In this document: positions 30,949-62,043 of the stretch, one piece after another
How the letters are laid out: every line of letters starts with the position of its first letter
Position numbering within the stretch: position 1 is the first letter of the stretch
Assembly: GCA_028871795.1 (NCBI GenBank)
Contig: JAGWMG010000011.1
Location: forward strand, 1-64,000
Length of the DNA stretch: 64,000 nucleotides
Source: Alphaproteobacteria bacterium
GTDB taxonomy: Bacteria > Pseudomonadota > Alphaproteobacteria > Micropepsales > Micropepsaceae
Direction: 5' to 3'
Notes under the pieces: model-generated
Told to the model about the DNA's origin: nothing
Database searches by the model: none
The model's input: only the letters and a program-made list of their open reading frames with translations
Position numbers and translations under genes: made by a program

Positions 30949-30973
30949 AGTTCACGGAAGGCGCAAGAGGGTG

Positions 30974-33900
30974 ATGCGGCTGAACGCCTATCGGATTTGG
31001 TTCCTCCGCGCTGCCGCGGCAGTGGTCGCTTGCCTTCTGGCGCAGCCGGTTCAGGCGGCGGACAAGGTCGCGGCTTCGACGGCGGGGGGGTATGCGCGGC
31101 TGCTCTTCAGCTTGGAGCCGAATACCCAGGTCAAAGCGCTCGTCGCCGGCGAGGTCCTGACAATCTCCTTCGACCGCAAGGTCGACCTCACGCCCACCGT
31201 CATCGCTCAGGCCCTGCCCGGCTATATCGCCGGTTCGCGCGCCGACCCCGACGGCAAGACGTTCCGCTTCGCGCTCAGCCAGGCCGTGCGCGTCCACACC
31301 AGCACTTCGTCCGGCACCACCGCCGTCGATCTGGCGCCCGCGAGCTATGCGGGCACGCCGCCCGATCTGCCGCCGCCCCCCCCGCCGCCGCCCAAGATCG
31401 TCGACGTCGCCAAATTGCCACTGCTCGAGGTGCGCTCGGGTTCCTATCGGAATTTTACCCGCATCGTCTTCGACTGGCCGCGCAATGTTCCCTACGCCGT
31501 GTTTCCAGGCGCCGGGAGATTGACGGTCCGCTTCCAAGCGTTGGCGAAGCCGGACTTTTCCGCCATCACGCGGCAGGCTCCGCCCTGGGTGAAGGCCGCG
31601 GGCTGGCGCGTCGAGAATGGCGGTACCGTTGTCGAACTCGAGACCGACAACGATTCCGGCTTTCACGATTTCCGCGACGGCACGCATGTCGTCGTCGATA
31701 TATTGGCGCCGAAAACCGATGCCGACGCCTACAAGCCGCCGGGCGGCATGAAGGCGACCGTCACCGCGTTCCAACAAACCGACGCCGCGACCAAGACGCA
31801 GGCCGCAGCGATCGCGGCCGCGGCGGCAAAACTGAACACGCCCGCAACCGCGCAGACAAAAACGGCAAGCGCACCGCCCCCGAAGACTGCGCCGGTGGCG
31901 CCTGCACCGAATCAGCCCGCCGCCGCGAGCCCGCCTCCTGCGGCAACCGCGCCGCCTGCCCTGAACGCTCCATCTTCCGCTCCCAACACGCAGGCCGCCG
32001 ACAGCACACTCACACGCGCCGGTGCCGTCTTGACCTTCCCGGGGGCCGGCCGGCGCGGCTCGGCGGTTTTCGTGCGCGGCCTGACCGCTTGGGTCGTGCT
32101 GCAGAATGCGGCGCCTTTGGACGCAGTCAGATTGAAATCCCAGCTCGGCGACTTCCCGGCGGCGGTCGATGCGGCTTCGAGCGCGGAGGTCTCCATTCTG
32201 CGCCTCACCCTCAAGCAGCCCGAACAGATCGCCGCCACGGCCGAAGGCTCGTCTCTAAAGGTCGTCATCGCGCCGCAGGTGAATTCGACGGCGATCGCGA
32301 TCGGCTTTGCGCGCAACCAGGATGATCCCACCCACTCTTCGCTCTCGACGCTGCTGCCGGGGGCGACCGCAACGGTGACGCTTGTCGATCCTGTCGCCGG
32401 CGACGAGTTGACCGTCATACCGGGCGCCGCCGGCCGGGCGATCTTGAGCGAGCATACCTATGTCGAATTCACGGCGCTGCAGACCGCATCGGGCATGGTG
32501 TTGCAGCCCACGGTCGACGATCTGTCCGTCGGCATCGACAAAACACGCGTGACGATCACGCGGCCGGGCGGGCTGTCGCTGACGCCGCCAGCGACGCCGG
32601 TCGCTGCATCGCCCGAAGCGCTGTTGCACGGCGGCGATGGACCCTGCTTCCTGGATTTCGCCAACTGGAAGACCGTCAGCGGCGGCAGCTTCCTGGCGAC
32701 CGAGCGCCGTCTGCGCGCGGCGACGGCGCGATTGAAACCCGCGGACGCCAATCATGCGCGCTTGGTACTGGCGCGCTTCTATCTGGCCAACGGTTTCGCC
32801 GCCGAGGCGCTCGGTCTCGTCAAAATGATGCAGTCGATCGATCCTGCGCTGCAGAGCGACATGCAGCTGCAGACGATCCGCGCGGCGGCGGATCTTCAAA
32901 TGGGCCGCATTCGCGACGCCCATAACGACATCGCCGGCGCGCAGTTCGACGCCGACCGCCACGCCGCCCTGTGGCGCGGGCTGATCGACGCGGCGCTCGA
33001 GAACTGGGACAGCGCGCACGCCAACCTCGAACGCGCCAGCACGGTGCTAGGCCGCTACCAGCCCGACATGCAGGCGCGCGTGCGCCTGGCCGATGCCGAC
33101 GCGGCGCTGGGGATCGGGCGTCTGGAGATTGCCGACGCCGAACTTTCCCGCCTGCCCAAACGGCTGGAGAACCCGCTGGCGCTCGAGGCCGATCTGGCGC
33201 GCGCCCGTCTTTACGCCGCCGAGAGGCAATGGCGCGAAGCCGACAGGCTGTTCGCCGCGGCCGAAGAGGGCGGCGACGGACGCGTGGCGGCCGAGGCCAT
33301 TTATGACCGGGTCAATGCCGCACTGGCGGCGGGAACCATGAAGCCGGCGGCGGCCGTCAACGCGCTCGAACGGCTGCGCTTCCGCTGGCGCGGCGACATC
33401 CTGGAACTGAACACGCTGCGCAAGCTTGCTTCGATCTATTTCGCCCAGAAGCGCTGGCGCGACGGGCTGCAGACGTTGCGGATCGCGACGCAATATTTTC
33501 CCGGCGACGAACTGGCCGGCAAAGCGCAGGACGACATGCGCGCGGCTTTCGTCGACCTTTTCCTGAAAGGCAAGGCCGACGCCATGCCGCCGGTGGAAGC
33601 GCTGGCTCTGTTCTACGACTTCCTCGAGCTGACTCCCATCGGTCCGGACGGCGACGAGATGATCCGGCGCATGGCCGACCGTCTGGTGGCCGTCGATCTA
33701 CTCGGCCCGGCCGCCGACCTTCTCAATTACCAGGTAACGAAACGGCTCGACGGCGTGGCGCGCGCCCAGGTCGCCACCAAACTCGCCATGGTCGAACTCA
33801 TGGACCACAAGCCGCAAGCGGCGCTGGAAGCCTTGCGCTCGACGCGCATCTCCACCCTGCCCGACGACGTCAATCACCAGCGCCTGTTGATGGAAGCGCG

Positions 33901-34336
33901 CGCGCTGGCCGAACAGAAGCAATGGGACCAGGCCCTCGAACTCATCGCCGTCGACCAGGCGCCCGATACGGCGCAGCTGCGGGCCGACATCTACTGGAAG
34001 AGCGGCAACTGGGCGGCAGCCGCCCAGAAGGCCGAAGACGCGTTGGGCACGGGCTGGAGCGATCCCGCGCCGCTCAGCGACCAGCAGCGTCAGGCAGTGA
34101 TGCGCGCCGCGGTCGCCTACTCGCTCGCCAACGACGAAACCAGCCTGGAGCGCATCCGTGAGCATTTCTCCGCGAAGATGAAAGCGAGCAGCGACGCCAA
34201 CGCCTTCGATGTCCTCACCCAGCGCATCGACATGCACGGCATGGCCTTCCGCGACGCCGCCGCCAAGGTGGCCTCGTTCGACACGCTGCAGGCGTTTATG
34301 AAGAATATCCAGAACCGCAAGGTCGCCTCGAACTAA
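30974..34336 (+). CDS. Large exported TPR protein of the flagellar operon
   Basis: 1120 residues (ATG 30974; GTG 30971 also possible). A signal peptide (FLRAAAAVVACLLAQPVQAA) is followed by AMIN-like beta-rich regions (YARLLFSLEPNTQVKALVAG; YRNFTRIVFDWPRNVPYAVF), a run of eight prolines near residue 135, an Ala/Pro-rich linker (about 260-340), and TPR-like helical repeats from about 570 to the end. This layout suggests a periplasmic scaffold that may touch peptidoglycan. It is the last gene of the fliL operon, 25 bases after motE, so a flagellar role is inferred. No exact family is known to me. Confidence 0.8.
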   Translation: MRLNAYRIWFLRAAAAVVACLLAQPVQAADKVAASTAGGYARLLFSLEPNTQVKALVAGEVLTISFDRKVDLTPTVIAQALPGYIAGSRADPDGKTFRFALSQAVRVHTSTSSGTTAVDLAPASYAGTPPDLPPPPPPPPKIVDVAKLPLLEVRSGSYRNFTRIVFDWPRNVPYAVFPGAGRLTVRFQALAKPDFSAITRQAPPWVKAAGWRVENGGTVVELETDNDSGFHDFRDGTHVVVDILAPKTDADAYKPPGGMKATVTAFQQTDAATKTQAAAIAAAAAKLNTPATAQTKTASAPPPKTAPVAPAPNQPAAASPPPAATAPPALNAPSSAPNTQAADSTLTRAGAVLTFPGAGRRGSAVFVRGLTAWVVLQNAAPLDAVRLKSQLGDFPAAVDAASSAEVSILRLTLKQPEQIAATAEGSSLKVVIAPQVNSTAIAIGFARNQDDPTHSSLSTLLPGATATVTLVDPVAGDELTVIPGAAGRAILSEHTYVEFTALQTASGMVLQPTVDDLSVGIDKTRVTITRPGGLSLTPPATPVAASPEALLHGGDGPCFLDFANWKTVSGGSFLATERRLRAATARLKPADANHARLVLARFYLANGFAAEALGLVKMMQSIDPALQSDMQLQTIRAAADLQMGRIRDAHNDIAGAQFDADRHAALWRGLIDAALENWDSAHANLERASTVLGRYQPDMQARVRLADADAALGIGRLEIADAELSRLPKRLENPLALEADLARARLYAAERQWREADRLFAAAEEGGDGRVAAEAIYDRVNAALAAGTMKPAAAVNALERLRFRWRGDILELNTLRKLASIYFAQKRWRDGLQTLRIATQYFPGDELAGKAQDDMRAAFVDLFLKGKADAMPPVEALALFYDFLELTPIGPDGDEMIRRMADRLVAVDLLGPAADLLNYQVTKRLDGVARAQVATKLAMVELMDHKPQAALEALRSTRISTLPDDVNHQRLLMEARALAEQKQWDQALELIAVDQAPDTAQLRADIYWKSGNWAAAAQKAEDALGTGWSDPAPLSDQQRQAVMRAAVAYSLANDETSLERIREHFSAKMKASSDANAFDVLTQRIDMHGMAFRDAAAKVASFDTLQAFMKNIQNRKVASN

Positions 34337-34353
34337 TCGACGGCAGCTTGTCT

Positions 34354-34848
34354 TCACGCGGCGGGCTGTGCCAGATCGCGGAACGCGGCAATCACCTTCT
34401 TGTAGGTATCGCGCTTGAAGGGGACGATGAGCCCCGGCAAATCATCCAGCGACAGCCATTTCCAGGCGGCGAATTCCGGATGCTGCGTCCTGATGTCGAT
34501 GTCGCCGTCCCTGCCGGTGAACCGCATCGCCAGCCATTTCTGCCTTTGGCCGCGGAAGCGCCCATGCAGAGCGACGCCCACAAGATGCCTGGGCAGGTCG
34601 TAGCACAGCCATTCGTCCATCTCGCGCAGGATGACGGCTTTGTCGGTGCCGATCTCTTCCTTCAATTCCCGCAAAGCCGTTTCGGCGGGCGTCTCGCCGT
34701 CGTCGATGCCGCCTTGCGGCATCTGCCAGCCCTCCACCGTCTGGTCGATGCGACGGCCGACAAAAACCGATCCGCCGCGGTTGAAGAGCATGACGCCGAC
34801 GCAGGGACGGTAGGGCAAATCGTCGTGGGAAGACCCGGGACGGGGCAT
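34354..34848 (-). CDS. rppH: RNA pyrophosphohydrolase
   Basis: 164 residues with the Nudix box GGIDDGETPAETALRELKEE IG (about 45-67) and the RppH flanks LPYRPCVGVMLFNRGGSVFV, EGWQMPQGG and DEWLCYDLP. RppH removes pyrophosphate from 5'-triphosphate mRNA ends and so starts decay. It is the last gene of the gpmA-envC-ctpA-deacetylase-rppH series, 9 bases after the deacetylase gene. Confidence 0.95.
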   Translation of the reverse strand: MPRPGSSHDDLPYRPCVGVMLFNRGGSVFVGRRIDQTVEGWQMPQGGIDDGETPAETALRELKEEIGTDKAVILREMDEWLCYDLPRHLVGVALHGRFRGQRQKWLAMRFTGRDGDIDIRTQHPEFAAWKWLSLDDLPGLIVPFKRDTYKKVIAAFRDLAQPAA

Positions 34849-34857
34849 ATGGGACGC

Positions 34858-35997
34858 TTATTGTTTCGACTGGCTGACTATGGCCGATACGGGCACCAGA
34901 ACAAAGCCCCTGCCGGAAAGTCCTTGCGCCCATTTGTTCACCCGGTCGACGGTCACCGGATAAAGAAAGCCGGAACCCGAGGCGCTGCCCTTGGCGCGTG
35001 CAACGGCTTCCAGGCCCGAAAGCCGATGGTCGATCTCCATGGCGGATTGGATCGCGTCGATGGTGTCGGTCGCCTGCGCGAAGTTGGCGCCGAGGCGCTG
35101 GGCGATGTCGGGGGCCACCGAATGCAACGCCAGCCCGTTGTCGTAGAAGAGCAGCCCGCGCCGGGTCAGATAGGTCATCACCGGTTCCAGCGCGGCCGCG
35201 TCCGAGAGGAAGCGTCCGCCGAGAAGATTTGTCACGCCGGTATATCCGGTGAACCGCGTCAGCGCCCATACCAAGCGCCGGGTGTTGGAATCTTCTCCGA
35301 CGCCGGCGCGCAGCGTGTATTGGCCCGGATCGCTATCGGGAAAGTCGTACGGCTCCATCGGCACTTCGAGGAGCACTTCGTGACCCTTCTGCCGCGCGGC
35401 GGCGACCCAGCGCTGGACGTCGGTGGTGTAGGGCACGAAGGCGAGCGTGATTCCCGAAGGCAGGCCGTCCAAGGCCGCGGTCGTCGCCTTGGCGCTGATG
35501 CCGAGTCCGTTGATGACGATGGCGATGCGCGGCTTGCCCGTCGAGACCACAGGAGCCGCGTAGGCGCGCATCGGCGGCGTACCGTCGTCGGCGATGCGGG
35601 GCAACGGCCCTTGCGGCGTTTTTTCGATCAGCGCCGGATCGGCAATCGCGACGCGTCCCGTGGAAACCGGAGGCGGCGGCGCGGCAGGTTGTTCGGCGGC
35701 GGGAGGTTGCACGCCGGCCGGCGGCGGCGCGGGTTCCAGCGGCGGCGCGGTTGGAGCAATGACTGGCGCCTGGGCCGGCGGCGGCTGTTTCGGCGGCACC
35801 GCGCGCGCCACGCGCTTCAGGTGTAGATCAAGCTGCGCGACCGGATCGCCGGCATGAGGATCGCCCAGGAACGCCACGCCGCCGGCGATCCCGAACAGCA
35901 CGGCGAAGACCAGGACATAAGCAAGCGCCAGCGCTTGCGCCCCGCGGCGTACGCTTTCTGGCGAGGACACGCCCCCGGTCATGCTGCTCGCGGCCAT
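34858..35997 (-). CDS. Divergent polysaccharide deacetylase (YibQ-type)
   Basis: 379 residues: an N-terminal membrane anchor (LALAYVLVFAVLFGIAGGVA), a Pro/Ala-rich linker (about 60-125) and a DUF610 divergent deacetylase barrel (RIAIVINGLGISAKATTAAL, LPSGITLAFVPYTTDVQRWV, GHEVLLEVPMEPYDFP). It usually sits beside envC and ctpA, as here, and is thought to act on peptidoglycan or another envelope glycan. The expected first aspartate is Asn in VINGLG. ATG 35982 is a second possible start. Confidence 0.88.
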   Translation of the reverse strand: MAASSMTGGVSSPESVRRGAQALALAYVLVFAVLFGIAGGVAFLGDPHAGDPVAQLDLHLKRVARAVPPKQPPPAQAPVIAPTAPPLEPAPPPAGVQPPAAEQPAAPPPPVSTGRVAIADPALIEKTPQGPLPRIADDGTPPMRAYAAPVVSTGKPRIAIVINGLGISAKATTAALDGLPSGITLAFVPYTTDVQRWVAAARQKGHEVLLEVPMEPYDFPDSDPGQYTLRAGVGEDSNTRRLVWALTRFTGYTGVTNLLGGRFLSDAAALEPVMTYLTRRGLLFYDNGLALHSVAPDIAQRLGANFAQATDTIDAIQSAMEIDHRLSGLEAVARAKGSASGSGFLYPVTVDRVNKWAQGLSGRGFVLVPVSAIVSQSKQ

Positions 35998-39681: not shown

Positions 39682-39749
39682 TGACATCGACGGAGATCTG
39701 CGATCTGTTGTAACAGACTGATTTGATTGCACTATTTATTTCATGCGGA

Positions 39750-39764
39750 CGGCACGAAACTGGC
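39750..39764 (+). promoter_or_regulatory. Sigma-54 promoter of flgI-flgJ
   Basis: CGGCACGAAACTGGC keeps GG and GC at 10-base spacing and the GGCACG core. The -12 side (TGGC for TTGC) is imperfect. Transcription would start about 26 bases before the flgI ATG. Confidence 0.55.
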
Positions 39765-39801
39765 AGGGAGGAATACGGAAAACGAGCAGCAGAAGCGGCT
39801 T

Positions 39802-40932
39802 ATGCCCTACAAGCGTCCATTCATAAGACTCTTCGCCGCCCTTCTCGCAGGTCTGCTGGCAGCACCGCCACAGCCGATCTTCGCTTATTCGCGTGTCAAG
39901 GACCTGGTCGACGTTCAGGGCATTCGCGACAACATGCTGGTCGGCTATGGGCTGGTGGTCGGCCTCAACGGCACCGGCGACTCCCTCAAGAACGCGCCCT
40001 TCACCCAGCAAAGCATCCAGACCATGCTCGAGCGGCTCGGCGTCAACACGCGCGGCAGCATCATGCAGACCAAGAACGTCGCCGCTGTGATGGTGACGGC
40101 AAGCCTTCACGCCTTTTCGGCCCAGGGCACGCGCATCGACGTTTCGGTCAGCGCCATGGGCGACGCCAAGAGCTTGCAAGGCGGCACCTTGCTGGTGACC
40201 CCACTGTTCGGCGCCGACGGGCAGATATATGCACTCGGCCAGGGCCCGGTCGCCATTGGCGGCTTCAGCGCCCAGGGCGATGCCGCCAGCGTGACCCGTG
40301 GCGTGCCCACGGCGGGACGCATCTCCAACGGGGCGATCGTGGAGCGCGAGGTCGGCTTCTCGCTGGCCGGCGAACACGAGCTGAAGCTTTCCCTGCACAA
40401 TCCCGATCTGACGACGGCGACGCGCCTTGCCGCCGCGGTGAACACCTATCTCGGAGGCTCTATCGCGCAAGCCACCGATCCCGCCACCATCCACATCGCC
40501 GTTCCCGCCAATTACCCCAATGGCGTCGTCGGCCTTCTCACCGACGTCGAGCAGGTGAAGGTCGATCCCGATCAGCCCGCCAAGGTCGTCATCGACGAAC
40601 AGTCCGGCGTCATCGTCATGGGCGCCAATGTGCGGATTTCGACGGTCGCCATCGCCCAAGGCAATCTGACGATCCGCGTCAACGAGACCCCGCAGGTGAG
40701 CCAGCCGGCGCCCTTCTCCAACACCGGCACCACACAAGTTGTCCCGCGCACGCAGATCCAGATCGACGACAGCAAGGGCAACAAGATGACGGTGCTGCAG
40801 GACGGCGTGGCACTGCAAAGTCTGGTTGACGGCTTGAACGCCCTCGGCGTCGGCCCGCGCGACATCATCTCGATCCTGCAGGCGATCAAGGCGGCCGGCG
40901 CGCTGCAGGCGGACATCGAGGTCATCGGATGA
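39802..40932 (+). CDS. flgI: Flagellar P-ring protein FlgI
   Basis: 376 residues from ATG 39802. A signal peptide (FIRLFAALLAGLLAAPPQPI) is followed by the conserved RVKDLVDVQGIRDNMLVGYG, LVVGLNGTGDSL, NVAAVMVTASL and the C-terminal LVDGLNALGVGPRDIISILQ. FlgI is exported by Sec and polymerises, with FlgA, into the periplasmic P-ring. It overlaps flgJ by 4 bases. Confidence 0.97.
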   Translation: MPYKRPFIRLFAALLAGLLAAPPQPIFAYSRVKDLVDVQGIRDNMLVGYGLVVGLNGTGDSLKNAPFTQQSIQTMLERLGVNTRGSIMQTKNVAAVMVTASLHAFSAQGTRIDVSVSAMGDAKSLQGGTLLVTPLFGADGQIYALGQGPVAIGGFSAQGDAASVTRGVPTAGRISNGAIVEREVGFSLAGEHELKLSLHNPDLTTATRLAAAVNTYLGGSIAQATDPATIHIAVPANYPNGVVGLLTDVEQVKVDPDQPAKVVIDEQSGVIVMGANVRISTVAIAQGNLTIRVNETPQVSQPAPFSNTGTTQVVPRTQIQIDDSKGNKMTVLQDGVALQSLVDGLNALGVGPRDIISILQAIKAAGALQADIEVIG

Positions 40933-41243
40933 GTCCCGGCGTCGACATCCAGACCGCGATTGCGGTTGCCAAGGCTCCGTTCCTGGCGCCTCGCCAAACC
41001 ACCGATCCCGCCACGGCGACGAAAGTCGCGAAGGAATTCGAAGGCGTCTTCCTCAGCCAGTTTCTCGGCGCGATGTTCGACGGCATCTCCACCGACGGCC
41101 CCTTCGGCGGCGGCCAGGGCGAGCAGATGTTCCGCTCGCTGATGCTCGACGAATACGGCAAACAGATCGTCGCGCAAGGCGGCATCGGCCTGGCGAGCAC
41201 CGTTTCCCGCGAGCTTCTCAAGACCCAGGAAGCTCCCCAATGA
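40929..41243 (+). CDS. flgJ: Rod-binding protein FlgJ (short form)
   Basis: 104 residues that contain only the rod-binding half of FlgJ (KVAKEFEGVFLSQFLGAMFD, FGGGQGEQMFRSLMLDEYGK, QIVAQGGIGLA). The muramidase half of enterobacterial FlgJ is absent, as is usual in Alphaproteobacteria. It caps or scaffolds the growing rod. Four-base overlaps on both sides place it in one unit with flgI and the FlgN-like gene. Confidence 0.93.
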   Translation: MSPGVDIQTAIAVAKAPFLAPRQTTDPATATKVAKEFEGVFLSQFLGAMFDGISTDGPFGGGQGEQMFRSLMLDEYGKQIVAQGGIGLASTVSRELLKTQEAPQ

Positions 41244-41662
41244 GCGCCGATCCGCAAAAGATTCAACGCTTGATCGCGATGGCCGAACGGCTGATCGCGG
41301 CGATCGAATCCGACATCGCCGCGCTCAAGGCGGGGCGTCTGCAGGAATTGCGCACCACCGATCCCGAGATCCAGCACCTGTCGTTGCTGTATGACCGCGA
41401 GGCGGCGGGGATGGACCCGGCGCGCGCAAAAGCGGCGCCGTCCGATCTGCGCCGCAAATTCTTCGACACCACCGCGAAATTCCGCGATGTCCTTGCCCTG
41501 CATGCGCGCCTGCTGACGCGCGTGCGCAATGCCAGCGAAGGCATCGTCAAGGCGGTGGCCGAGGAAATCGAGCGCCGCCGCGCGCCGACCTGCACCTATG
41601 CGCCGGCGGCGTCGCACGCGCGTCCGCAGGCTTCGGCGATGGTCTACAACACAGTGATCTAG
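41240..41662 (+). CDS. FlgN-like flagellar chaperone
   Basis: 140 residues, nearly all helical (RLIAMAERLIAAIESDIAAL, FFDTTAKFRDVLALHARLLT), with a disordered C-terminal tail ending SAMVYNTVI. Size, helix pattern and place after flgJ suggest the FlgN family, the export chaperone of hook-associated proteins FlgK and FlgL. Sequence similarity is too loose to be sure. Its stop overlaps by 4 bases that of the convergent beta-propeller gene. Confidence 0.65.
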   Translation: MSADPQKIQRLIAMAERLIAAIESDIAALKAGRLQELRTTDPEIQHLSLLYDREAAGMDPARAKAAPSDLRRKFFDTTAKFRDVLALHARLLTRVRNASEGIVKAVAEEIERRRAPTCTYAPAASHARPQASAMVYNTVI

Positions 41663-44394
41663 CCGGTGGCGCTGGTGCTCGAATTGCTGACGGACAGCAA
41701 GTTCAGCGCCAGCGAATAGTTCGACAATTGGGATTGCGTATAGGCCGACACGGTGCCGCCGGATTGCGCCGCCGTGCCGGTGCTCGAGGCGGGCGCGTTG
41801 GTTGTCTGATAGGCCTTCTGGATGGCGGAGAGCACACTCAGCAGTTGCGCGCGCGCGGCGCCCGCGGCGGAGGCTGTGAGAACATTCATGTTGGTGGCGA
41901 GGCCAAGCCCGAACGCCCGCGAACTCGACGAGGAATTTCCGCCTGCGCTTAGCGTTCCCGCCGCGATGCCCAGCCGCGCCAGCGCGTCGAAGTTTGCCGG
42001 ACCCGCCACGAGCTTCGCCGTCACGCTCGTGCCCGCCGCAATCTTCAAGCCCTCGCCGTTCGCGCCGTAACTGATGCTCGCCGCGCCGTTGGAGCCGAGT
42101 TCGCCGTTGATCTTGGTAACCAGGCTCTGCAGCGTCTCGCCGTTGTCGATCGTAATCGTGAAGGCCCGCGCCGCCGTGCCCTCGATTTGGATCTGGAACG
42201 AATCGCCTGCTCTCAGCGTCGTCTGGGACGTCAGATCACTCGACTGGCTGACGCCGATGGTCCCGCGCGGAAGGCCGAGCGCATCCAGCACGCTCGAACC
42301 GCTGTTGTCGAAAGCGACGGCTTGTCCGGCGGACTGGCCGTCGGCGCCGCCATATTGGCGCGTCCAAACGATCGCGCCAGCGGGGGACATCGCGGTGACG
42401 AAGGTATTGTTGGTGCCGACGGCGTTGCGGGTCTGCCCGGCAAACGTCCCGGTGGTGGTGCCGGCGAGATAGACCGTGCCGTCGGAGCCGATCGTCAACC
42501 CGCCCGCCGTGTCGCTGCCGCCGGTCCCAACATAGCTCACCGTATTGGGAGTGGCGCTGGCGCCGTTGTCCGTCGCCGCGAAGACGAAAGCGTCGCTGCC
42601 GCCCGAGTTGGCGTTGGCGATCGCGGCCGCCCCGCCGGCGTCGAGCGCGCCGTTCTGCGTCGAGCCCGCAACGTAGATCTGATTGCCGTTCACGGCCAAG
42701 CCGCTGATGGAGCCGCCGTTCCCGAGCGCGCCCAGATCGATCTGCCAGGCCGGTGCGACGGTGGCGTCGCCGCCCGTGTATTTGGAGAGGATCGCTTCGC
42801 CGTTCTGCACCGACGCCACCACGAGATCGCCCGACGCCGTGACCGCGGTGGCGGCGACCGTGTCGTTTCCAGAGGTGCCGAATTGCTGCTCGTAGATCGT
42901 CTTTCCCGAAGAAGCGAGTTTGGCGATGTAGGCGTCGCGGCCGCCGTTGCTGGTCTGGCCCGCGCCGATGACGCCGGTCACCTGTCCGCCGACATAGACA
43001 TTGCCCGAGGCGTCCACGCTCACGGCGGCGGCCTGGTTGTTGTTGAGCGTCTGGATCTGCGTGGTCCAGGTCTGGTTGCCGTTGGCGTCGTATTTGGCGA
43101 CGAAACTGTCCGTGTTGCTGTTGGCGACGGCGGTGGTGCCGAGGTCGGCCGTGGTCGATCCGGCAACCACCACGCCGCCGTTCGGATTGAGCGCCAGCGA
43201 AGCGGCGGAAGCGGAGCCGGCGCTGCCCAGGAGCTTGGTCCACTGCAGATTGCCGGCCGAGTCGTACTTCGTCAGATAGACGTCCTGCGAACCCTGATTG
43301 AGCTGATTGGCGAAACTGCCGGTCGCGTTGCCGACCATGTAGACGTTGCCGTTCGCATCGACCACCGTCGATTGCGCCGTCGTCGTTCCCGTGGTTGGCG
43401 AAACGGTGGCGCTGAAGGAACTCTGCGGGGCGGAAAGATTCGTCAGCTTGACCAGCCGGCCTTGATTGTCCGCGGCGGTGCCGGATGCGGCCGTCGTCAG
43501 ACCGGAGGTGCCCGCGACGTAAAGCGACGGGGTGGCGGCGGCCGAAGACAGCGAAATGCTCTCGCTTGCCGAAGTGTTGATCTGGATGCCGTAAGAGGCA
43601 TTCGTGGGATCGTTGATCGAGCCTTGGGTGATCACGCGCTGGAAGCGCGAGGAGAACCCGGCACCCATCAGCTGCTGATTGACATAGTTGACGATGTTGT
43701 CGATCGAAAGCGCGCCTTGGACCTGCGACAGGTCGATTGCAACGTTCGTCGTCGTCCCGCCCTTGGTGACGGCGACGGTGAAGCTGTCGCCGACGCTAAG
43801 GCCCGGCAAGGCCTTGGCGATATTGGCGTCGCCGACGACCGTGCCGCCGCTGTAGCCGAACGTCGCGAACGGCACCTGTGCCGTGCTGGTGACGGACGAC
43901 GAAGGCGCCGCCGCCTGCAGCGTGAAATTGTTGAACGTCGCGGTCTTGATGAAGGATTCGATCTGCTGCATCCCCGTCTGGAATCGGGTGTTCAAGCCGA
44001 CCAATTGTCCCGCCGTCATGGTGGAGCGCTGCGCCATGCTGGCCAGATAGGAAACATTGTTGACCGCGTTGTAGAGCGCGAAGAGGTTCTGGTTGTCCTG
44101 CTCGGTCTTGGCGTCGGCGGCGCTGCTGTGCAGCGTCGGCACCTTGCTGGTGTCGAGGAAATTGGCGGTGGCGAGCACCTGGGCGTCGCGGGTTTGCTGG
44201 CTGGGCGGAGACAGGTTCTCCCAAGGCAGTTGATCTTTCGCCGTGGCGCCGGTCGAAGAGGACGCAGACGACGAAGAGGTGGAACCGGCTGTGCCGCTCG
44301 CAGACGTCGCCGCCGCGGCGACGGACAACTGCGCTTGGTAGTAGTTGAGCAGGGTCATCGGATCGAAGCTCAAGATCGAAAGAGTCGTGGCCAT
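41659..44394 (-). CDS. Beta-propeller protein with flagellin-IN-like segments
   Basis: 911 residues without a signal peptide. The N-terminus (LSILSFDPMTLLNYYQAQLS) leads to a Ser/Thr-rich linker and a helical part. Near 200 comes a flagellin-IN-like segment (GDSFTVAVTKGG, then LSIDNIVNYVNQQLM). Residues about 340-690 form SBBP-type propeller repeats (DANGNVYMVGNATG, DASGNVYVGGQVTG, GSDGTVYLAGTTTG, each followed by a KYDxxGNxxW-like strand). A second IN-like segment follows near 730 (AGDSFQIQIEGTAARAFTIT, NGETLQSLVTKINGELGS). The C-terminus is helical. This suggests export by the flagellar type III system to the hook or filament. The function is unknown. A CtrA-type box lies upstream at 44463. 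Confidence 0.75.
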   Translation of the reverse strand: MATTLSILSFDPMTLLNYYQAQLSVAAAATSASGTAGSTSSSSASSSTGATAKDQLPWENLSPPSQQTRDAQVLATANFLDTSKVPTLHSSAADAKTEQDNQNLFALYNAVNNVSYLASMAQRSTMTAGQLVGLNTRFQTGMQQIESFIKTATFNNFTLQAAAPSSSVTSTAQVPFATFGYSGGTVVGDANIAKALPGLSVGDSFTVAVTKGGTTTNVAIDLSQVQGALSIDNIVNYVNQQLMGAGFSSRFQRVITQGSINDPTNASYGIQINTSASESISLSSAAATPSLYVAGTSGLTTAASGTAADNQGRLVKLTNLSAPQSSFSATVSPTTGTTTAQSTVVDANGNVYMVGNATGSFANQLNQGSQDVYLTKYDSAGNLQWTKLLGSAGSASAASLALNPNGGVVVAGSTTADLGTTAVANSNTDSFVAKYDANGNQTWTTQIQTLNNNQAAAVSVDASGNVYVGGQVTGVIGAGQTSNGGRDAYIAKLASSGKTIYEQQFGTSGNDTVAATAVTASGDLVVASVQNGEAILSKYTGGDATVAPAWQIDLGALGNGGSISGLAVNGNQIYVAGSTQNGALDAGGAAAIANANSGGSDAFVFAATDNGASATPNTVSYVGTGGSDTAGGLTIGSDGTVYLAGTTTGTFAGQTRNAVGTNNTFVTAMSPAGAIVWTRQYGGADGQSAGQAVAFDNSGSSVLDALGLPRGTIGVSQSSDLTSQTTLRAGDSFQIQIEGTAARAFTITIDNGETLQSLVTKINGELGSNGAASISYGANGEGLKIAAGTSVTAKLVAGPANFDALARLGIAAGTLSAGGNSSSSSRAFGLGLATNMNVLTASAAGAARAQLLSVLSAIQKAYQTTNAPASSTGTAAQSGGTVSAYTQSQLSNYSLALNLLSVSNSSTSATG

Positions 44395-44462
44395 CCGTTC
44401 CGCCCGCTGCGCGCGGAAAAGTTTCCCCTTTTCCTCTTAACGAGGCTTGAAGATCAGCGTGC

Positions 44463-44477
44463 TTAACGCAGCCTTAA
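44463..44477. promoter_or_regulatory. CtrA-type box TTAA-N7-TTAA
   Basis: TTAACGCAGCCTTAA is an exact TTAA-N7-TTAA match between the divergent propeller gene (start 44394) and the TPR gene (start 44502). Another TTAA is at 44437. CtrA drives early flagellar genes in Caulobacter relatives. Confidence 0.55.
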
Positions 44478-44501: not shown

Positions 44502-46010
44502 ATGCTCGCCGATCCTTACGCACAAGGTTTGAGGTTCTCCGCTCAGGGGCAGCATACCCGGGCGATCGAGCAGTTCGAGCGCGCCCTGGCCGCCAACCCC
44601 GACGATCCGCGCACCCTTTTTGCGCTCGGCAACACGGCGCGCGCGCTCGGCATGAGCCGGCCGGCCGAGGAGTTCTATCGCCGCGTCCTCCGCGCCGAGC
44701 CGGGGCGGCTCGAAGCCGTGGTCAACCTCGCCAATCTGTTGCGCGGGCAAGGGCAATTCGCGGCAGCGGAGGCGCTGCTGCTGCCGGCCCTGGCGGAAAA
44801 CCAGCAGGCGCCGGAGCTATGGTTGACGCTGGGTTCGACCTATCGCGAGATGGGCGATACGGGCCGTGCCGCCGAACATTACCGCCAAGCCCTGCAGCAC
44901 TGGCCCGATTATGCGGCCGCGCTCGGCAATCTCGCCGACCTTTTGGCCGACGAAGGAAAAACTGGGGACGCGCTCGAACTCTACGAACGCGCCTTGAAGG
45001 CACAGCCGGACAACGCCCAGGCGCGGCTCAATCGCGCCGTGCTCCTGCTGCTGACGGGCGATCTCAAGGCTGGGTGGCGCGACTATGCCGCCCGGCTGAA
45101 GCTTCCCGGCAAGGTTCCGCTTCCCGACCACGGATTGCCCTGCTGGAACGGCGGCCCCCTCAAGCGCGTCCGCCTGCTGGTGACGGCCGAGCAGGGCGTG
45201 GGCGACCAGATCATGTTCGCGAGCATGATCCCCGATCTGGCCGGGCGCGCCGCGGCGGAAGGCGGAAGCGTCATCCTCGAATGCGAACCCAGGCTCGTCG
45301 AGCTGTTCGCGCGATCGTTCCCGTCCGTGGCCGTGCGGCCGTGGGACATCGAAACGCGCGAGGGCGCAGCGCGCACGCATTACGGCTGGCTCAAGGCGGC
45401 CGGAGGCGCCAATGCCGCCGTCGAAATGGGCACGCTGCCGCGCTTTCTGCGCAAAGCCGTCGACGATTTTCCGCCGACAAAATCCTATCTCATTCCCGAC
45501 GCGGGAGAAGCGCAGCGTTGGCGCAGATACTTCGCCGGCGCCCCGCTCATCGGCTTGTGCTGGCGCAGCGGCGCGACGGGCGGACACCGCGCATTGCAGT
45601 ATGCTCCGCTCGAACGCTGGGCGGCCTTCATCCGCGGGCTGCCCGGCACCTTGATTTGTGCGCAGTACGACGCCAACGCAGAGGAGATCGCGGCCCTCAA
45701 GACGATGAGCGGCCGCGACATCGTGGTGCCGCTGGGCCTCGACCAGAAAAACGAACTCGACCGCACTGTTGCCATGCTGTCGGTGCTCGACGCGATGGTG
45801 AGTGCGCCGACGGCGGTTTCCTGGCTGGCCGCCGCGACCGGCGTAGCGACCTGCAAGCTCCTGTACGACACGAGTTGGACGAGTTTCGGCCGGCCTTACG
45901 AACCGTTTGCGCCGTCCGCGTGTTGCATCGCGCCGCGCGTGGGCGGTGACTGGGCGGACGCCTTCGCGCAAGCGAACGCGTGGATCATGTCGCGGCTTGT
46001 TTCGCCTTGA
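44502..46010 (+). CDS. TPR protein with GT41/GT9-like C-terminus (FlbA-like)
   Basis: 502 residues. TPR units fill about 1-190 (GLRFSAQGQHTRAIEQFERA, LGSTYREMGDTGRAAEHYRQ, DALELYERALKAQPDNAQAR). The C-terminal half resembles the nucleotide-sugar-binding part of O-GlcNAc-transferase-like proteins (VRLLVTAEQGVGDQIMFASM, IPDLAGRAAAEGGSVILECE, IGLCWRSGATGGHRALQYAP). Related TPR proteins such as Caulobacter FlbA are needed for flagellin modification. It is convergent with the pseF-pseG fusion and follows a CtrA-type box. Transfer of the nonulosonate to flagellin is inferred. Confidence 0.8.
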   Translation: MLADPYAQGLRFSAQGQHTRAIEQFERALAANPDDPRTLFALGNTARALGMSRPAEEFYRRVLRAEPGRLEAVVNLANLLRGQGQFAAAEALLLPALAENQQAPELWLTLGSTYREMGDTGRAAEHYRQALQHWPDYAAALGNLADLLADEGKTGDALELYERALKAQPDNAQARLNRAVLLLLTGDLKAGWRDYAARLKLPGKVPLPDHGLPCWNGGPLKRVRLLVTAEQGVGDQIMFASMIPDLAGRAAAEGGSVILECEPRLVELFARSFPSVAVRPWDIETREGAARTHYGWLKAAGGANAAVEMGTLPRFLRKAVDDFPPTKSYLIPDAGEAQRWRRYFAGAPLIGLCWRSGATGGHRALQYAPLERWAAFIRGLPGTLICAQYDANAEEIAALKTMSGRDIVVPLGLDQKNELDRTVAMLSVLDAMVSAPTAVSWLAAATGVATCKLLYDTSWTSFGRPYEPFAPSACCIAPRVGGDWADAFAQANAWIMSRLVSP

Positions 46011-48709: not shown

Positions 48710-49633
48710 ATGGCCATCGCCGCGAGCGAACCCGTCATTGCCTGGGGCGAGCATGAGGGGCGCCGCGTCGCCCGGGTCGACGGCTGCGACATCGTCCAAT
48801 GCGACGTCTGCGGCTTTCGCCACGTCCTGCCCCTGCCGGATGCCGTAAAGCTCGAACAGGCTTATCGCGAACTTTATTACAGCGAAGAAAAACCGGCATT
48901 CCTGGTCCATGCCGGCGAAGACCAGGATTGGGCGCAGCTGGCGCAGACCGACCGGCTGGAAATCTTCGAATCGCTTCTTGGACGTGGCCGGCTGCTCGAC
49001 ATCGGTTCGGGACCGGGATTTTTCCTCAAGGCGGCGCAGGCCCGCGGCTGGCAGGTATTGGGCGTCGAACCGTCGCGGCAAGCCGCTGCGCACGCCCGCA
49101 CCTTAGGCGTCGATGTCGTCGAAGGCTTCTTCAACGCCCAAACGGCGGGCAGTCTCGGCGTGTTCGACGTCGTCCATCTGAACAACGTCCTGGAGCATCT
49201 GCCCGATCCCATCGGAACTCTCACGCTCGCGCGGGAGGTGTTGAAACAAGGCGGGTTGATCTGTGTGGGCGTTCCCAACGATTTTTCGCCGTTCCAGATC
49301 GCCGCACGCGCCTCGCTGGGCGCGGACGAATGGTGGATCGTGCCGTCCCATCATCTCAACTATTTCGACTTCGCCTCCGCCGCCGCTCTCCTGGAACGGC
49401 TCGGTTTTCGCGTGGCGGAGCGCACCACGAGCTTTCCGATGGAACTCTTCCTGCTGATGGGCGAGGACTACACCAAGAACGGCGCTCTCGGCCGTACTTG
49501 CCACGCCAAACGCAAGCGCATCGACCAGGCGCTGGAGGCGGCGGGGCTCAAGGAGGAACGGCGCGCCTTCTATCGCGCCCTGGCGAACGCCGGGATGGGA
49601 CGCGAAGCGGTCTTGATCGCGGTCAAATCGTGA
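48710..49633 (+). CDS. Class I SAM-dependent methyltransferase
   Basis: 307 residues: an N-terminal segment with CDIVQCDVCGFRHVLPLPDA (possible zinc-binding Cys pair), then the SAM domain (RLLDIGSGPGFFLKAAQARG, VLGVEPSRQAAAHARTLGVD, VVHLNNVLEHLPDP, GGLICVGVPNDFSPFQ). It belongs to the Methyltransf_23 group often found in sugar and surface-glycan loci. GAGGAG lies 7 bases before the ATG. It opens the plus-strand glycan operon and overlaps the sulfotransferase gene by 4 bases. Confidence 0.85.
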   Translation: MAIAASEPVIAWGEHEGRRVARVDGCDIVQCDVCGFRHVLPLPDAVKLEQAYRELYYSEEKPAFLVHAGEDQDWAQLAQTDRLEIFESLLGRGRLLDIGSGPGFFLKAAQARGWQVLGVEPSRQAAAHARTLGVDVVEGFFNAQTAGSLGVFDVVHLNNVLEHLPDPIGTLTLAREVLKQGGLICVGVPNDFSPFQIAARASLGADEWWIVPSHHLNYFDFASAAALLERLGFRVAERTTSFPMELFLLMGEDYTKNGALGRTCHAKRKRIDQALEAAGLKEERRAFYRALANAGMGREAVLIAVKS

Positions 49634-50466
49634 GCCGGACGACTGAGGCCTTCTTCATCGTTTCGAGCGGGCGCTCCGGCACTGCCATGCTGCACAAGGC
49701 GTTGGCGGCCGCTCCGGACGTCGAGGCCCATCACGAATACATGGTGCATATCGTCCAGCCTTTGGCGGTACGGCGCTTTATGGGACTCGCCGACGCCGCC
49801 GAGGCGAAACGTGTGCTCGCAGGAACCCACGTTGCCGCGATCCGTTACAGCAAAATGGAGCATTGGGGCGATTCGTCGAACAAGCTCTCCTGGCTGATCC
49901 CCGAACTTGCCGAACTGCTGGCGGAGGCGAAGTTCGTCCATCTGGTGCGCGACGGACGCAAAGTCGCGAGTTCTTATCTCCACAAGCTAGGAAACGAGTG
50001 CTACGACGACCGCTCCACGGCGATCTTGCGCGCGCATGCCGACGATCCGACTGCTATGCCGGCACCCCCGCCGGAAAAGAAATATTGGTGGCCGTTGCCG
50101 CGCAAGGCCGATCCCTTGGCCGGCGTGTTTGCAGGCTACGACCAGTTCGAGCGCATCGCCTGGCATTGGTCGGAGATCAACCGCGTCATCCTGGAAGCGC
50201 TCGGGGAACTCCCGCCGCAGCGAAGCCTGTTCGTCCGCCTGGAGGATTTGCGTGCTGGCCCGAGCACGGCGCGCGCACTTTACGAATTTCTTAACCTTCC
50301 CTACCGCGACGAATATTTTGCGATGTTCGCACGGCCTCACAACGTCAACCGCCCCGAGGATAAACTCCTCGACGAAAAACAACGCATGCAGTTCGAGGCG
50401 ATCGCGGGCCGCATGCTGGCGCGGCTGGGCTACGCTTCGCGGGCGGAATACGTAGTGAATTATTAA
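49630..50466 (+). CDS. Sulfotransferase-domain protein
   Basis: 278 residues from GTG 49630. The PAPS phosphate loop FFIVSSGRSGTAMLHKAL is at the N-terminus and the 3'-phosphate motif FVHLVRDGRKVASSYLHKLG near residue 105. The C-terminal RSLFVRLEDLRAGPSTARAL and LYEFLNLPY are also typical of sulfotransferases. It would sulfate a sugar or other hydroxyl. GTGA overlap with the methyltransferase gene places it in the operon, so its acceptor is probably the glycan made there (inference). Confidence 0.85.
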   Translation: MSRTTEAFFIVSSGRSGTAMLHKALAAAPDVEAHHEYMVHIVQPLAVRRFMGLADAAEAKRVLAGTHVAAIRYSKMEHWGDSSNKLSWLIPELAELLAEAKFVHLVRDGRKVASSYLHKLGNECYDDRSTAILRAHADDPTAMPAPPPEKKYWWPLPRKADPLAGVFAGYDQFERIAWHWSEINRVILEALGELPPQRSLFVRLEDLRAGPSTARALYEFLNLPYRDEYFAMFARPHNVNRPEDKLLDEKQRMQFEAIAGRMLARLGYASRAEYVVNY

Positions 50467-50482
50467 CAGTGAACAGTCGAAG

Positions 50483-51688
50483 ATGGTTACCGGGTCGTTC
50501 CTGGACGTCTTCGACATGCCTGCGATCTGTGAACTCTGCCGCAACGATGCGCTGGAAGCGGTCTACACGCCGGAGCGCTCGCAACGATGCATTCGCGTGC
50601 ACATCTGTGCCAACTGCGGCCTGGTGCAAAGCCTGCCGCGCGCCGACCGTGCTCCGCGCAGGACCGCCGCGGTGTCGAGCGGCGCCGATTGGGGCAATGT
50701 GCGCTACGGCAAGGGATTCCGCACCCAGATCGCCGTCGACGCCGTGTTGCGCCATCGCGGTCGCGCCGATTCCATTTCGCTTCTCGACGTCGGCTCCAAC
50801 CGCGGCCGCTTCGCGCGCGCGTTTCTGGCGGAAGCGCCGAATGCCGCCGTCGTCGCCGTCGAACCGGACGAACGCGTGGCGCAGTCCTGTGCGGAGCTGG
50901 AGCGCGCCGAACTCGTGGTCGCGCGCATCGAGGACGCCGCGCTCGAAAGCGGACGTTTCGACGTCGTCCATTCCTGCCACACCATCGAGCACCTCGCCCA
51001 CCCCCGCGATGTCCTCGCCGATCATTGGCGCTGCCTGAAGGCCGGCGGACTTCTGGTTCTCGATGCTCCGAACATCGCCCTGATCGGGGCCGACGACATC
51101 GTCGAGGAATGGTTCATCGACAAGCATCTCACGCACTTCTCCGAGCGCACGCTCGTGCGCATGGTGGAGGCGGCCGGCTTCAAGATCATCGAGAAGCCTG
51201 ACAAGACCGATCCGGAAAACCTCTTCCTGGTCGCGGAAAAATCCGCCGCTGCGGCCGATAGAGTTGCGGGCGATTGGGAAGAAGTCGAAGAGGCGCACGC
51301 CCTGATCGCGGATTACCTCGCCGCGCGGGCGCGCAACCTCATCGCCCTTGGCGCCGTCGCCGCCGAACTGACGGCTTTGGCGCCGAGGGGCGTGGCGATA
51401 TGGGGCGCCGGGCGGATTTTCGACACCCTGGTCGTGCACGGCGGCTTCGACACCAAGGCGCTGCGGCTCCTGATCGACACGCATTTGAGAGAGCATGTCG
51501 GCGAACGGCACGGCTGCGCGCTTACCGGTCCCGAGGCCCTGACGGATGCCCGCCCCGGCGTGATCGTCGTCATGTCGCGGGGGTTCGCGGGCGAAATCGC
51601 AGCGGAAGCCCGCAGGTTCGCGCCTACCGCGGAAATCCTTCTCTACACCGATCTGCTCAGCCGCGCGCGCACGCGCCTGGCTGCTTGA
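50483..51688 (+). CDS. C-methyltransferase-like protein with N-terminal zinc motif
   Basis: 401 residues (ATG 50483; ATG 50516 also possible). An N-terminal CELCRN ... CANCGLVQSL motif is followed by a SAM domain (SLLDVGSNRGRFARAFLAEA, VVHSCHTIEHLAHPRDV) and a C-terminal domain (VAIWGAGRIFDTLVVHGGFD) of the Methyltransf_13/14 type. This three-part layout is that of NDP-hexose C-methyltransferases. The C-terminal domain may bind the product or remove the epimerised form. It lies 16 bases after the sulfotransferase gene. Confidence 0.85.
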   Translation: MVTGSFLDVFDMPAICELCRNDALEAVYTPERSQRCIRVHICANCGLVQSLPRADRAPRRTAAVSSGADWGNVRYGKGFRTQIAVDAVLRHRGRADSISLLDVGSNRGRFARAFLAEAPNAAVVAVEPDERVAQSCAELERAELVVARIEDAALESGRFDVVHSCHTIEHLAHPRDVLADHWRCLKAGGLLVLDAPNIALIGADDIVEEWFIDKHLTHFSERTLVRMVEAAGFKIIEKPDKTDPENLFLVAEKSAAAADRVAGDWEEVEEAHALIADYLAARARNLIALGAVAAELTALAPRGVAIWGAGRIFDTLVVHGGFDTKALRLLIDTHLREHVGERHGCALTGPEALTDARPGVIVVMSRGFAGEIAAEARRFAPTAEILLYTDLLSRARTRLAA

Positions 51689-51699
51689 GGGGAGTCGTT

Positions 51700-52608
51700 A
51701 TGACGAGTGCAAAAATCACAGTCCGAAACGGCGCGATCCCGGCGGACGCGCCAGACACCGACATCGAGGTCCAGATCGCCGACGCCGCCCGCTTCGTCCG
51801 GCGCCACACCATCGCGTCCATTTTCCGAGCCGGCTCCGGCCATCCCGGGGGAGCGCTTTCCTGCGCCGACATCCTGGCGTGCCTGTTCGGCGCCGAATTG
51901 AATGTCTGGCCGTCTGGAACGGATGAACGCCTGCGGGACCGGTTCGTTCTTTCGAAGGGCCATGCCTGCCCCGCGCTTTATGCCATCGGCGCCTATCATG
52001 GGTTCTGCGACAAAACCGCAGCGCTGGCGCTAAGGAAACTCGGCAGCCCGTTCCAGGGCCATCCCCATGTGCGCGATCTGCCCTGGGTCGAGACCAGCAC
52101 GGGCTCGCTCGGCCAGGGTTTCTCCGTCGCGCTCGGCATGGCGATGGGCATGAAGCTGCAGAAGATGCCTTCGCGCACCTACGTCGTGCTCGGCGACGGC
52201 GAACTGCAGGAAGGCGAGGTCTGGGAAGCCGCGATGTGCGCGGCGCATCACAAGCTCGACAATCTCTGCGCCATCGTCGACTACAACAAGCTGCAGAGCG
52301 ACGCCTCCAACGACGTCATCATGCGGATCGAGCCGCTGGCGGACAAATGGCGCGCCTTCGGCTGGACCGTCTTCGAGATCGACGGCCACAACATTCCCGA
52401 AATTCTTTCGACACTGCATCTGGCAGCGTCCACCCATAACCATCCCTCGGTCCTCATCGCCCACACCGTGAAAGGCAAAGGCGTGCCTTACATGGAAAAT
52501 GGACCGGCCTGGCACGGCAGCGTCAAGCTCACGCGCCAGCAGGCCGAAGAGGCACTCGCCGCGTTGGGTGCGGACCGGCAGGAAATCATGGAGCTTCTCG
52601 ATGTTTGA
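51700..52608 (+). CDS. Transketolase, N-terminal (ThDP) subunit
   Basis: 302 residues from ATG 51700 (GAGGGGAG upstream). Features are IFRAGSGHPGGALSCADILA, LSKGHACPALYAIGAYHGF, GSLGQGFSVALGMAMG and the ThDP-Mg motif VVLGDGELQEGEVWEAAMCA with DYNKLQSD. This is the alpha half of a split transketolase; the beta half follows with an 8-base overlap. Split enzymes often serve dedicated sugar pathways, moving a two-carbon ketol unit. Its place in the glycan operon suggests a role in making an unusual sugar. Confidence 0.93.
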   Translation: MTSAKITVRNGAIPADAPDTDIEVQIADAARFVRRHTIASIFRAGSGHPGGALSCADILACLFGAELNVWPSGTDERLRDRFVLSKGHACPALYAIGAYHGFCDKTAALALRKLGSPFQGHPHVRDLPWVETSTGSLGQGFSVALGMAMGMKLQKMPSRTYVVLGDGELQEGEVWEAAMCAAHHKLDNLCAIVDYNKLQSDASNDVIMRIEPLADKWRAFGWTVFEIDGHNIPEILSTLHLAASTHNHPSVLIAHTVKGKGVPYMENGPAWHGSVKLTRQQAEEALAALGADRQEIMELLDV

Positions 52609-60019: not shown

Positions 60020-60844
60020 TTACCGGAACAGAGACAACACCGTCTGCGGCGCCTGATTGGCAATCGCCAAGGCCTGGATGCCGAGTTGCTGCTTGGTCTG
60101 CAAGGACGTCAGCAGGGCGCTTTCCTGCGCCATGTTCGCGTCGACCAAGCTGCCGATACCGGCGGTCAACGTGTCGGACAGCTTCTGTGCGAATTCCAGC
60201 TGGATCGAGAACTTCTTCGAGCCAGAGGACAGTTTCGCCAGGGCCGCGTTGACGTTCTGCAGCGAGGACGTGACCGTCGCCACCATGGTCGAGGCTTTGG
60301 CGGCCGTGGAGATCGTGCCCGTGCTCTTGATGGTCACGATCGAGCCCGACAGCGACAATTTCTGGGCGCTGACGGTGATGCGGCGCGTGCCGTCGGCCGA
60401 AGCCAGCGCCGTGATCTGGTTCGTCGAACCGTCGACAAGATTGAAACCGTTGAAAATGGCGTTCTTCACGATCGTGGTGATCTGATCGCGCAGAGCGACG
60501 AAGTCCTGGTTCATCGCCTGACGGCTCGCCGTGTCGAGCGAGGTATCGGACGCGGAGAGGGACTTCTGCTTCATTTGGACCAGCAGATCCGAGATCGACT
60601 GGCCGGCAGACATAGCGACATCGACCGCGGACATGCCGCGGTTGATGCTGTCGGTGACTGCCGCATACCCGGCCACGTTGCCGCGCATGTTCTGGGCGAT
60701 GGCGTAGGTGGCGCCGTCATCCTTCGCGTTCGCGACCTTCATGCCCGTGTTGATGGCGCTTTGGACCTGGGCCAACTGCGACTGGGTCTGATTCAGATAT
60801 TGCAGCGCAATCATGGCGCCGTTGTTGGTATTGACGCTAAGCAT
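60020..60844 (-). CDS. Flagellin 1
   Basis: 274 residues, a short flagellin with D0/D1 domains only: MLSVNTNNGAMIALQYLNQT, NRGMSAVDVAMSAGQSISDL, and the C-terminal SALLTSLQTKQQLGIQALAI, ANQAPQTVLSLFR. The surface D2/D3 part is absent, as in Caulobacter-type flagellins. GGAGG lies 6 bases before the ATG. It has its own sigma-54 promoter (60915-60929). It is a close paralogue of the gene at 61142-61966. Confidence 0.97.
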   Translation of the reverse strand: MLSVNTNNGAMIALQYLNQTQSQLAQVQSAINTGMKVANAKDDGATYAIAQNMRGNVAGYAAVTDSINRGMSAVDVAMSAGQSISDLLVQMKQKSLSASDTSLDTASRQAMNQDFVALRDQITTIVKNAIFNGFNLVDGSTNQITALASADGTRRITVSAQKLSLSGSIVTIKSTGTISTAAKASTMVATVTSSLQNVNAALAKLSSGSKKFSIQLEFAQKLSDTLTAGIGSLVDANMAQESALLTSLQTKQQLGIQALAIANQAPQTVLSLFR

Positions 60845-61966: not shown

Positions 61967-62043
61967 GGTGTGGTCTCCACTTCCGTTCTGGTCAGCGAGC
62001 TGCGTTCTGCACATCGCGAGGCACGATGCCCCGCCCTCGCTTC

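Follow-up and report, generated by a model that had tools for sequence, protein, structure and literature searches.

The 64,000-nucleotide (nt) stretch of alphaproteobacterial DNA analysed here (positions 1 to 64,000 of contig JAGWMG010000011.1, from a member of the Micropepsaceae; hereafter the window) encodes on its minus strand a 911-residue protein, named PROP in our analysis, in which a β-propeller lies between domains of flagellar type. Its assignment as a flagellar protein of this architecture is well supported by synteny, by co-occurrence with the P-ring protein FlgI, and by homology to flagellin and to FliD (HAP2), the filament cap protein. PROP is very likely a member of the FlaEY family, i.e. 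of the family of the protein located beside the Caulobacter flagellin cluster, and we propose, at a probability of roughly 0.4, that its role lies in the assembly of the filament and resembles that of FliD, which it may replace. To our knowledge, no propeller has previously been found inside a flagellar assembly protein. The parts of PROP are as follows.

41659–44394, minus strand: PROP, very probably of the FlaEY family (open frame of 911 codons, and relatives).
44104–44394, minus strand: residues 1–97, with an N-terminal motif (F/L-D-x-x-x-L-L-x-Y-Y-Q type), a low-complexity linker and an invariant P-W at 57–58 (alignment of 32 members).
43900–44103, minus strand: residues 98–165, a helical hairpin homologous to flagellin D1 (hhalign, profile search, helices in the model).
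43501–43851, minus strand: residues 182–298, first IN-type domain, with a modelled fold resembling FliD D2–D3 (model, and match to the second IN domain).
42298–43500, minus strand: residues 299–699, SBBP β-propeller, probably of seven blades, the first of which may start near 285 (Pfam SBBP, CylK, blade motifs).
41935–42276, minus strand: residues 707–820, second IN-type domain (hhalign to FliD, profile search).
41677–41877, minus strand: residues 840–906, two C-terminal helices (secondary structure of a poor model).

The link to flagellin is carried by the hairpin. Residues 111–163 match a set of 14 flagellins from the class (hhalign, 91.3%, E 9.5e-7) and residues 107–163 match nine flagellins from other classes (96%, E 2.8e-9), compared with 0.06 to 2.5% for 11 other families and four reversed profiles used as controls, one reversed profile reaching 3.1% in a repeat. 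The matched part of flagellin is the second half of its N-terminal region (about residues 88–145). Positions 103–180 of the family profile also pick out flagellin genes of other classes among the 378 phylum genomes searched; these matches were checked in fetched stretches, where Flagellin_N was present in six of the six frames scanned (13 stretches were fetched for phylum matches, of which 10 gave a match and L272, L276 and L277 did not). Flagellin_N itself matched two of the 32 aligned members, with E 0.01 at best and the second part of the model alone represented. A candidate relation of the N-terminal D-x-x-x-L-L motif to the N-terminal motif of FliD was not supported, the best FliD match having E 6.1 and lying among unrelated frames.

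The propeller is flanked by the two IN-type domains, which match each other (hhalign, 92%). The second matches FliD (80%, E 1.4e-5), and the corresponding region of the family profile matches one FliD and one hook protein FlgE in the phylum search. The initial annotation, made from the sequence of the window, had described two flagellin-IN-like segments in the protein; Pfam Flagellin_IN matches four of the 32 members (best E 7.8e-4), and the window protein itself is not matched. The SBBP propeller named in the same annotation is borne out by Pfam SBBP (PF06739; score 24.8 bits, cut-off 20.5, E 2.2e-5), by a match to the propeller of CylK in the PDB (E 4.4e-46), and by six clear motifs of propeller blades between residues 349 and 639, with a seventh probable near 290 (by eye). 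CylK, whose likeness to PROP is the propeller itself, is a cyanobacterial alkylating enzyme without flagellar domains.

Modelling is consistent with a FliD-like fold in the first IN domain. In a single-sequence model of residues 90–300, for which the whole-fragment predicted local distance difference test score (pLDDT) is 52, block means rise to 79 in this domain. VIA aligned the domain from this fragment with Escherichia coli FliD (Z 7.0, root-mean-square deviation 3.0 over 100 residues), and among the 50 rows shown, nine cover the first IN domain alone, namely six FliD, two cap or filament-assembly complexes and one phage tail protein (Z 6.4–7.0). The top two Foldseek hits among 350,542 chains were a filament-assembly complex (9u4r), in which the matched chain is probably FliD judging from its length and the aligned range, and a FliD–FliC complex. 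The VIA rows for the helical hairpin were mostly generic helical hairpins and were rejected as support.

Like FliD, PROP appears to have IN-type domains, of which the second matches FliD by sequence and the first resembles FliD D2–D3 in a weak model, and both proteins have little or no cysteine; unlike FliD, PROP has 911 residues with a propeller insert, its hairpin matches flagellin and not FliD, and neither FliD_N nor FliD_C was matched in the window protein or appeared among the 24 families matched by the 32 members at E 0.1.

The occurrence of PROP follows that of FlgI. Among 96 genomes of the order, 65 have both PROP and FlgI, three PROP only, five FlgI only and 23 neither (eight discordant; Fisher test, 2e-14). 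A genome of the same family that is 99% complete (G447) has FlgI and no match to PROP, and is an exception to this co-occurrence. In the class sample, PROP is found in 25 of the 27 FlgI-positive genomes of carrier families.

No FliD was detectable in the carriers tested. FliD_C was found in 86 and FlgI in 227 of the 385 class genomes (the 86 include three below the Pfam cut-off, none of them FlgI-positive). Within the 227, FliD is present in 0 of 25 carriers versus 80 of 202 non-carriers (Fisher test, 1e-5); counted by family, the figures are 0 of 13 versus 51 of 101 (4.8e-4). The control, Caulobacter vibrioides, was matched for FlgI and FlgK, and FliD_C was not matched. The available parts of PMC8306008 and PMC8781033 hold nothing on FliD in Caulobacter, and we found no explanation in the openly licensed literature of how the filament grows in FliD-less alphaproteobacteria such as this genus.

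Three roles had been offered for the protein in the initial annotation, i.e. a hook–filament junction piece, a cap, or an adhesive decoration, and the cap is the best of these, given the absence of FliD from the tested carriers and the FliD-type domains flanking the propeller. As a third junction protein, PROP would draw on its flagellar-type domains and on a weak match of the hairpin to FlgL (48–51%). The genome of the window encodes FlgK (over the cut-off) on contig 5, with an FlgL-like gene (below the cut-off) beside it; because junction proteins thus exist separately, and with D0 not detected in PROP, this role is highly improbable. TIGR02492 (FlgK) and TIGR02550 (FlgL) were likewise not among the NCBIfam matches of PROP at E 1. 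A decoration of filament or hook, whether adhesin or shield, would have the D1-like hairpin as its anchor and the propeller facing outwards, and would be dispensable for assembly. Such a role fits the propeller and the IN domains, both of a kind that typically forms outer modules, and a D1-like hairpin without D0 suits such an anchor, but the near-constant presence of PROP in FlgI-positive genomes of carrier families, together with its occurrence in all 20 Caulobacteraceae described below, suits a core role better, and a decoration leaves the absence of FliD from tested carriers unexplained; we consider it unlikely.

PROP is not a one-off but belongs to an old and widespread family of the Alphaproteobacteria, one member of which is encoded next to the flagellin cluster of Caulobacter; this had not been foreseen by the annotation. 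Matches were obtained in 50 of 100 related genomes and, with fragments counted, in 68 of the 96 genomes from the order. In the class sample 43 of 385 genomes have a match, 27 of them full-length-type; these 27 are the class carriers, G024 (one propeller fragment) and 15 genomes whose partial matches were weak being excluded and the broken or partial copy of G282 counted, and copies in several pieces (for example in G010, G025, G032 and G038) were counted without being mended. The 15 full-length-type matches of the phylum sample (378 genomes) all fall in the same class, and 31 phylum-sample genomes outside it have partial matches only. All 20 Caulobacteraceae genomes searched, a subset of the 80 reached through a MipZ scan, contain PROP, 13 in one stretch and seven as two adjoining pieces. 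Identity to the window protein ranges from 27 to 62% in the 32-member alignment and reaches 80% within the genus.

Relatives also occur on plasmids. That of Sphingobium sp. V4 is on a megaplasmid, approximately 4 kb from flgI, and that of an Erythrobacter aureus plasmid record, whose matches are split between the last and the first part of the sequence, seems to span the start; six other plasmid-record matches fall inside the propeller region. No relative of PROP was found in the viral contigs searched. Contig 7 of Asticcacaulis sp. AC466 (G491) carries two full-length-type copies (201705–204716 and 292486–295467). A lone 245-residue propeller fragment of the same genus (G024, contig 11, 28480–29163), in a genome without a FlgI match, is probably a decaying remnant. 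Frames matching the second IN-type domain alone were seen in G085 (contig 4, 45922–46416) and G400 (contig 90, 12987–13292).

PROP is related over its whole length to the protein beside the Caulobacter flagellin cluster; the identification of that protein as FlaEY rests on position. In C. vibrioides OR37 the relative (L212:8924-11800), 33% identical to the window protein in the alignment, immediately follows three flagellin genes, and a TPR (FlmG-like) gene lies approximately 5 kb from it. This fits the flaEY cluster of C. crescentus, which, as reported in 1988, contains three tandem flagellin genes, and on this basis the OR37 gene would be the published flaEY. We found no description of a propeller or of FliD-like domains in FlaEY in the openly licensed literature, a scope outside which the 1988 Caulobacter paper falls. 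PROP and FlaEY/FlaQ are alike in that relatives occur throughout the Caulobacteraceae searched and in Sphingobium sp. V4; they differ in that the window gene adjoins flgI-flgJ-flgN-like genes and a TPR gene, with the flagellin genes approximately 15 kb off.

FlaE/FlaY are described as modulating flagellin gene expression, and Sphingomonas FlaQ as a homologue of FlaEY (PMC8921679), while flaY has been termed a putative flagellar regulator (PMC3667746). PROP might thus be a cytoplasmic regulator of flagellin and chemotaxis gene expression, with the hairpin as a decoy for flagellin chaperones or for FlbT/FlaF-type factors. The flagellin-like segment and the changes in flagellin expression reported in these papers on loss of FlaE/FlaY or FlaQ suit such a role; no credible match to a DNA- or RNA-binding domain was found, cysteine is scarce as in exported flagellar proteins, and a propeller between IN-type domains would be unusual for a regulator, the anatomy of PROP suggesting instead an exported flagellar part. 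We regard a regulatory role as unlikely.

The scarcity of cysteine holds across the family, with nine in the 29,402 residues of the 32 members, 26 of which have none; seven of the nine lie near the N-termini, no more than 37 residues into four longest-frame starts. By comparison, no cysteine occurs among the 7,262 residues of the FliD set and 38 occur among the 3,582 of the TPR neighbours. This depletion hints at export, and PROP is probably an exported flagellar protein, for which the flagellar system would be the route; a signal peptide is absent by eye, in agreement with the initial annotation.

The neighbourhood of PROP in the window contains the following features.

39727–40932, plus strand: flgI (P-ring; Pfam FlgI, 2.3e-139).
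40929–41243, plus strand: flgJ-type rod-binding protein (Pfam Rod-binding, 5.6e-12).
41240–41662, plus strand: small flgN-like gene between flgJ and PROP (found in the same order with flgI and flgJ in eight loci; name taken from the initial annotation).
44437–44451, no strand assigned: second CtrA-type box, with one mismatch (sequence pattern).
44463–44477, no strand assigned: perfect CtrA-type box, TTAA-N7-TTAA, in the gap between the divergent PROP and TPR genes.
44502–46010, plus strand: TPR protein, the divergent partner of PROP (Pfam TPR).
60020–60844, minus strand: flagellin gene (NCBIfam flagellin models, E 5e-35, below cut-offs).
61142–62083, minus strand: flagellin gene (NCBIfam flagellin models, E 3e-39, below cut-offs).

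The flgI-flgJ-flgN-like genes (39727–41662) had been placed head-to-head with PROP; they in fact converge on it tail-to-tail at its downstream side, and the head-to-head partner is the TPR gene, with which, as had been stated, PROP shares the perfect CtrA-type box. The flgN-like gene gave no match in Pfam or NCBIfam. Genes of flgF, flgG and flgA type are also present in the window. Two long plus-strand frames at 30971–35826, of 1121 and 492 residues, are putative genes that no Pfam family matched at E 0.001, the second of which has relatives in L037 and L038. Beyond the TPR gene lie a sulfotransferase, a methyltransferase and a split transketolase (48799–53584), which are possibly flagellin-glycan decoration genes; the sulfotransferase and methyltransferase are again found in the vicinity of the TPR gene in L036, L037, L038 and L083.

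Linkage of PROP to flagellar and sugar genes extends beyond the window. In 35 wide loci, the same stretch holds flgI in 10, flagellin in eight, a TPR/FlmG-like gene in 12 and an HldE-type sugar kinase/nucleotidyltransferase in nine; at least one of these four markers is present in 28 loci and none in seven. PROP is divergent from a TPR/FlmG-like gene, 70–218 nt apart, in L036, L037, L083 and L086. The window TPR protein resembles the TPR (FlmG-like) protein encoded close to the flagellin cluster of Caulobacter (phmmer, 4.8e-54 to L212:1800-3593), and relatives of the split transketolase beyond its gene (51274–53584) occur in five TPR-type loci. In eight loci (L031, L032, L078, L079, L082, L085, L091 and L093) PROP and an HldE-type gene diverge, 160–534 nt apart; in all of these except L093 the HldE-type gene is the first of an operon that also encodes a SIS-domain protein, an epimerase and a split transketolase (L031, L032, L085 and L093 were Pfam-checked); this operon is a candidate flagellin-heptose pathway. 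Two lineages thus link PROP to apparent glycan-building genes, which would act on flagellin.

FlmG is described in PMC7591256 as a TPR flagellin glycosyltransferase whose own TPR domain binds flagellin and which is sufficient for glycosylation in heterologous hosts. Those properties speak against PROP as a flagellin-handling factor that acts before assembly, for example as a chaperone presenting flagellin to an FlmG-like enzyme, as does, for a role in the periplasm, the lack of a signal peptide (by eye); the divergent arrangement with the TPR/FlmG-like gene in four loci and the flagellin-like hairpin fit such a factor, which we regard as very unlikely. The same paper raises a possible assembly factor for glycosylated flagellin in the flagellar cluster of polarly flagellated, flagellin-glycosylating bacteria, loss of which would stop filament formation and not secretion or glycosylation. 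FlaEY-family proteins fit this possible factor in both place and anatomy.

The box shared with the TPR gene is conserved in the genus. In the upstream regions of 44 relatives (from 250 nt upstream of the longest-frame start to 100 nt within the frame), the window being counted apart, a perfect TTAA-N7-TTAA occurs in 31, against 0.07 expected from shuffles, and in 26 of the 29 relatives from the genus of the window. Control of flmG, flmAB, neuB and fljJ by CtrA has been described (PMC7591256).

Several observations weigh against a FliD-like role for PROP, or temper what can be drawn from the data above. With respect to anatomy, neither a D0-like segment nor the flagellin C-terminal region was detected in PROP by hhalign, so that PROP is like flagellin in one part of the N-terminal region only. 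The N-terminal motif is without a match, and the C-terminal helices found no relative among flagellin, FliD, FlgK and FlgL (hhalign, 3.5% at most). The check for D0/D1-like ends, which the annotation had named and for which it had suggested searches against these same four proteins, thus has a split outcome, with a D1-like hairpin at the N-terminal end and no D0 detected. Use of the uncut family profile lowers the matches of the hairpin to 66% (flagellin) and of the second IN-type domain to 39% (FliD). The first IN-type domain scores 0.1% against FliD by sequence, VIA itself notes that Z values near 7 are common, the best Foldseek E of 0.12 is not significant, and the full-length model (pLDDT 36) is unusable and gives no reliable structure; because such Z values are common and a sequence match to FliD is lacking, the FliD-like fold of this domain is supported by the model and not proven. 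Similarly, FlgI and MipZ are cysteine-poor too, and the depletion is for this reason just a hint of export.

With respect to distribution, two of the 27 class carriers are without FlgI (G087 and G282). Neither PROP nor detectable FliD is present in 122 of the 227 FlgI-positive class genomes; therefore the absence of FliD does not require PROP, which is at most one of several solutions. Phylogeny was handled in the exclusion test by family counts alone, and the test did not extend to the bulk of the order's carriers, to the Caulobacteraceae (20 genomes) or to 11 additional carriers from the phylum search. One family (f12) contains both FliD genomes and a carrier, G737, in which FliD was not seen on the 146-kb contig bearing PROP, the extent of that observation. 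The perfect CtrA-type box is not general, occurring in just five of 15 loci outside the genus and in none of four from the Caulobacteraceae. Finally, the literature labels the family regulatory (PMC8921679, PMC3667746).

On our preferred reading, a FliD-like role at filament assembly, PROP would be exported by the flagellar system and work outside the cell, where the D1-like hairpin and the two IN-type domains would attach it to the tip at which the hook or filament grows, much as FliD docks. The propeller would then face incoming flagellin, possibly its glycan, and help the subunit into place, by which PROP would substitute for the missing FliD. The altered flagellin expression of flaEY and flaQ mutants may, as a conjectural reconciliation, reflect feedback from failed assembly and not direct regulation. 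A bolder and doubtful proposal is that the FlaEY family is an independently built second kind of filament cap or assembly factor, made of a flagellin-derived hairpin, FliD-type domains and a glycan-reading propeller, that replaced FliD in lineages with FlmG-type or heptose-type flagellin glycosylation and would be the possible factor of the FlmG paper.

These results suggest that a gene annotated as a regulator may encode an exported structural or assembly part of the flagellum, and make PROP/FlaEY a candidate assembly factor whose anatomy can be put to the test in a model organism.

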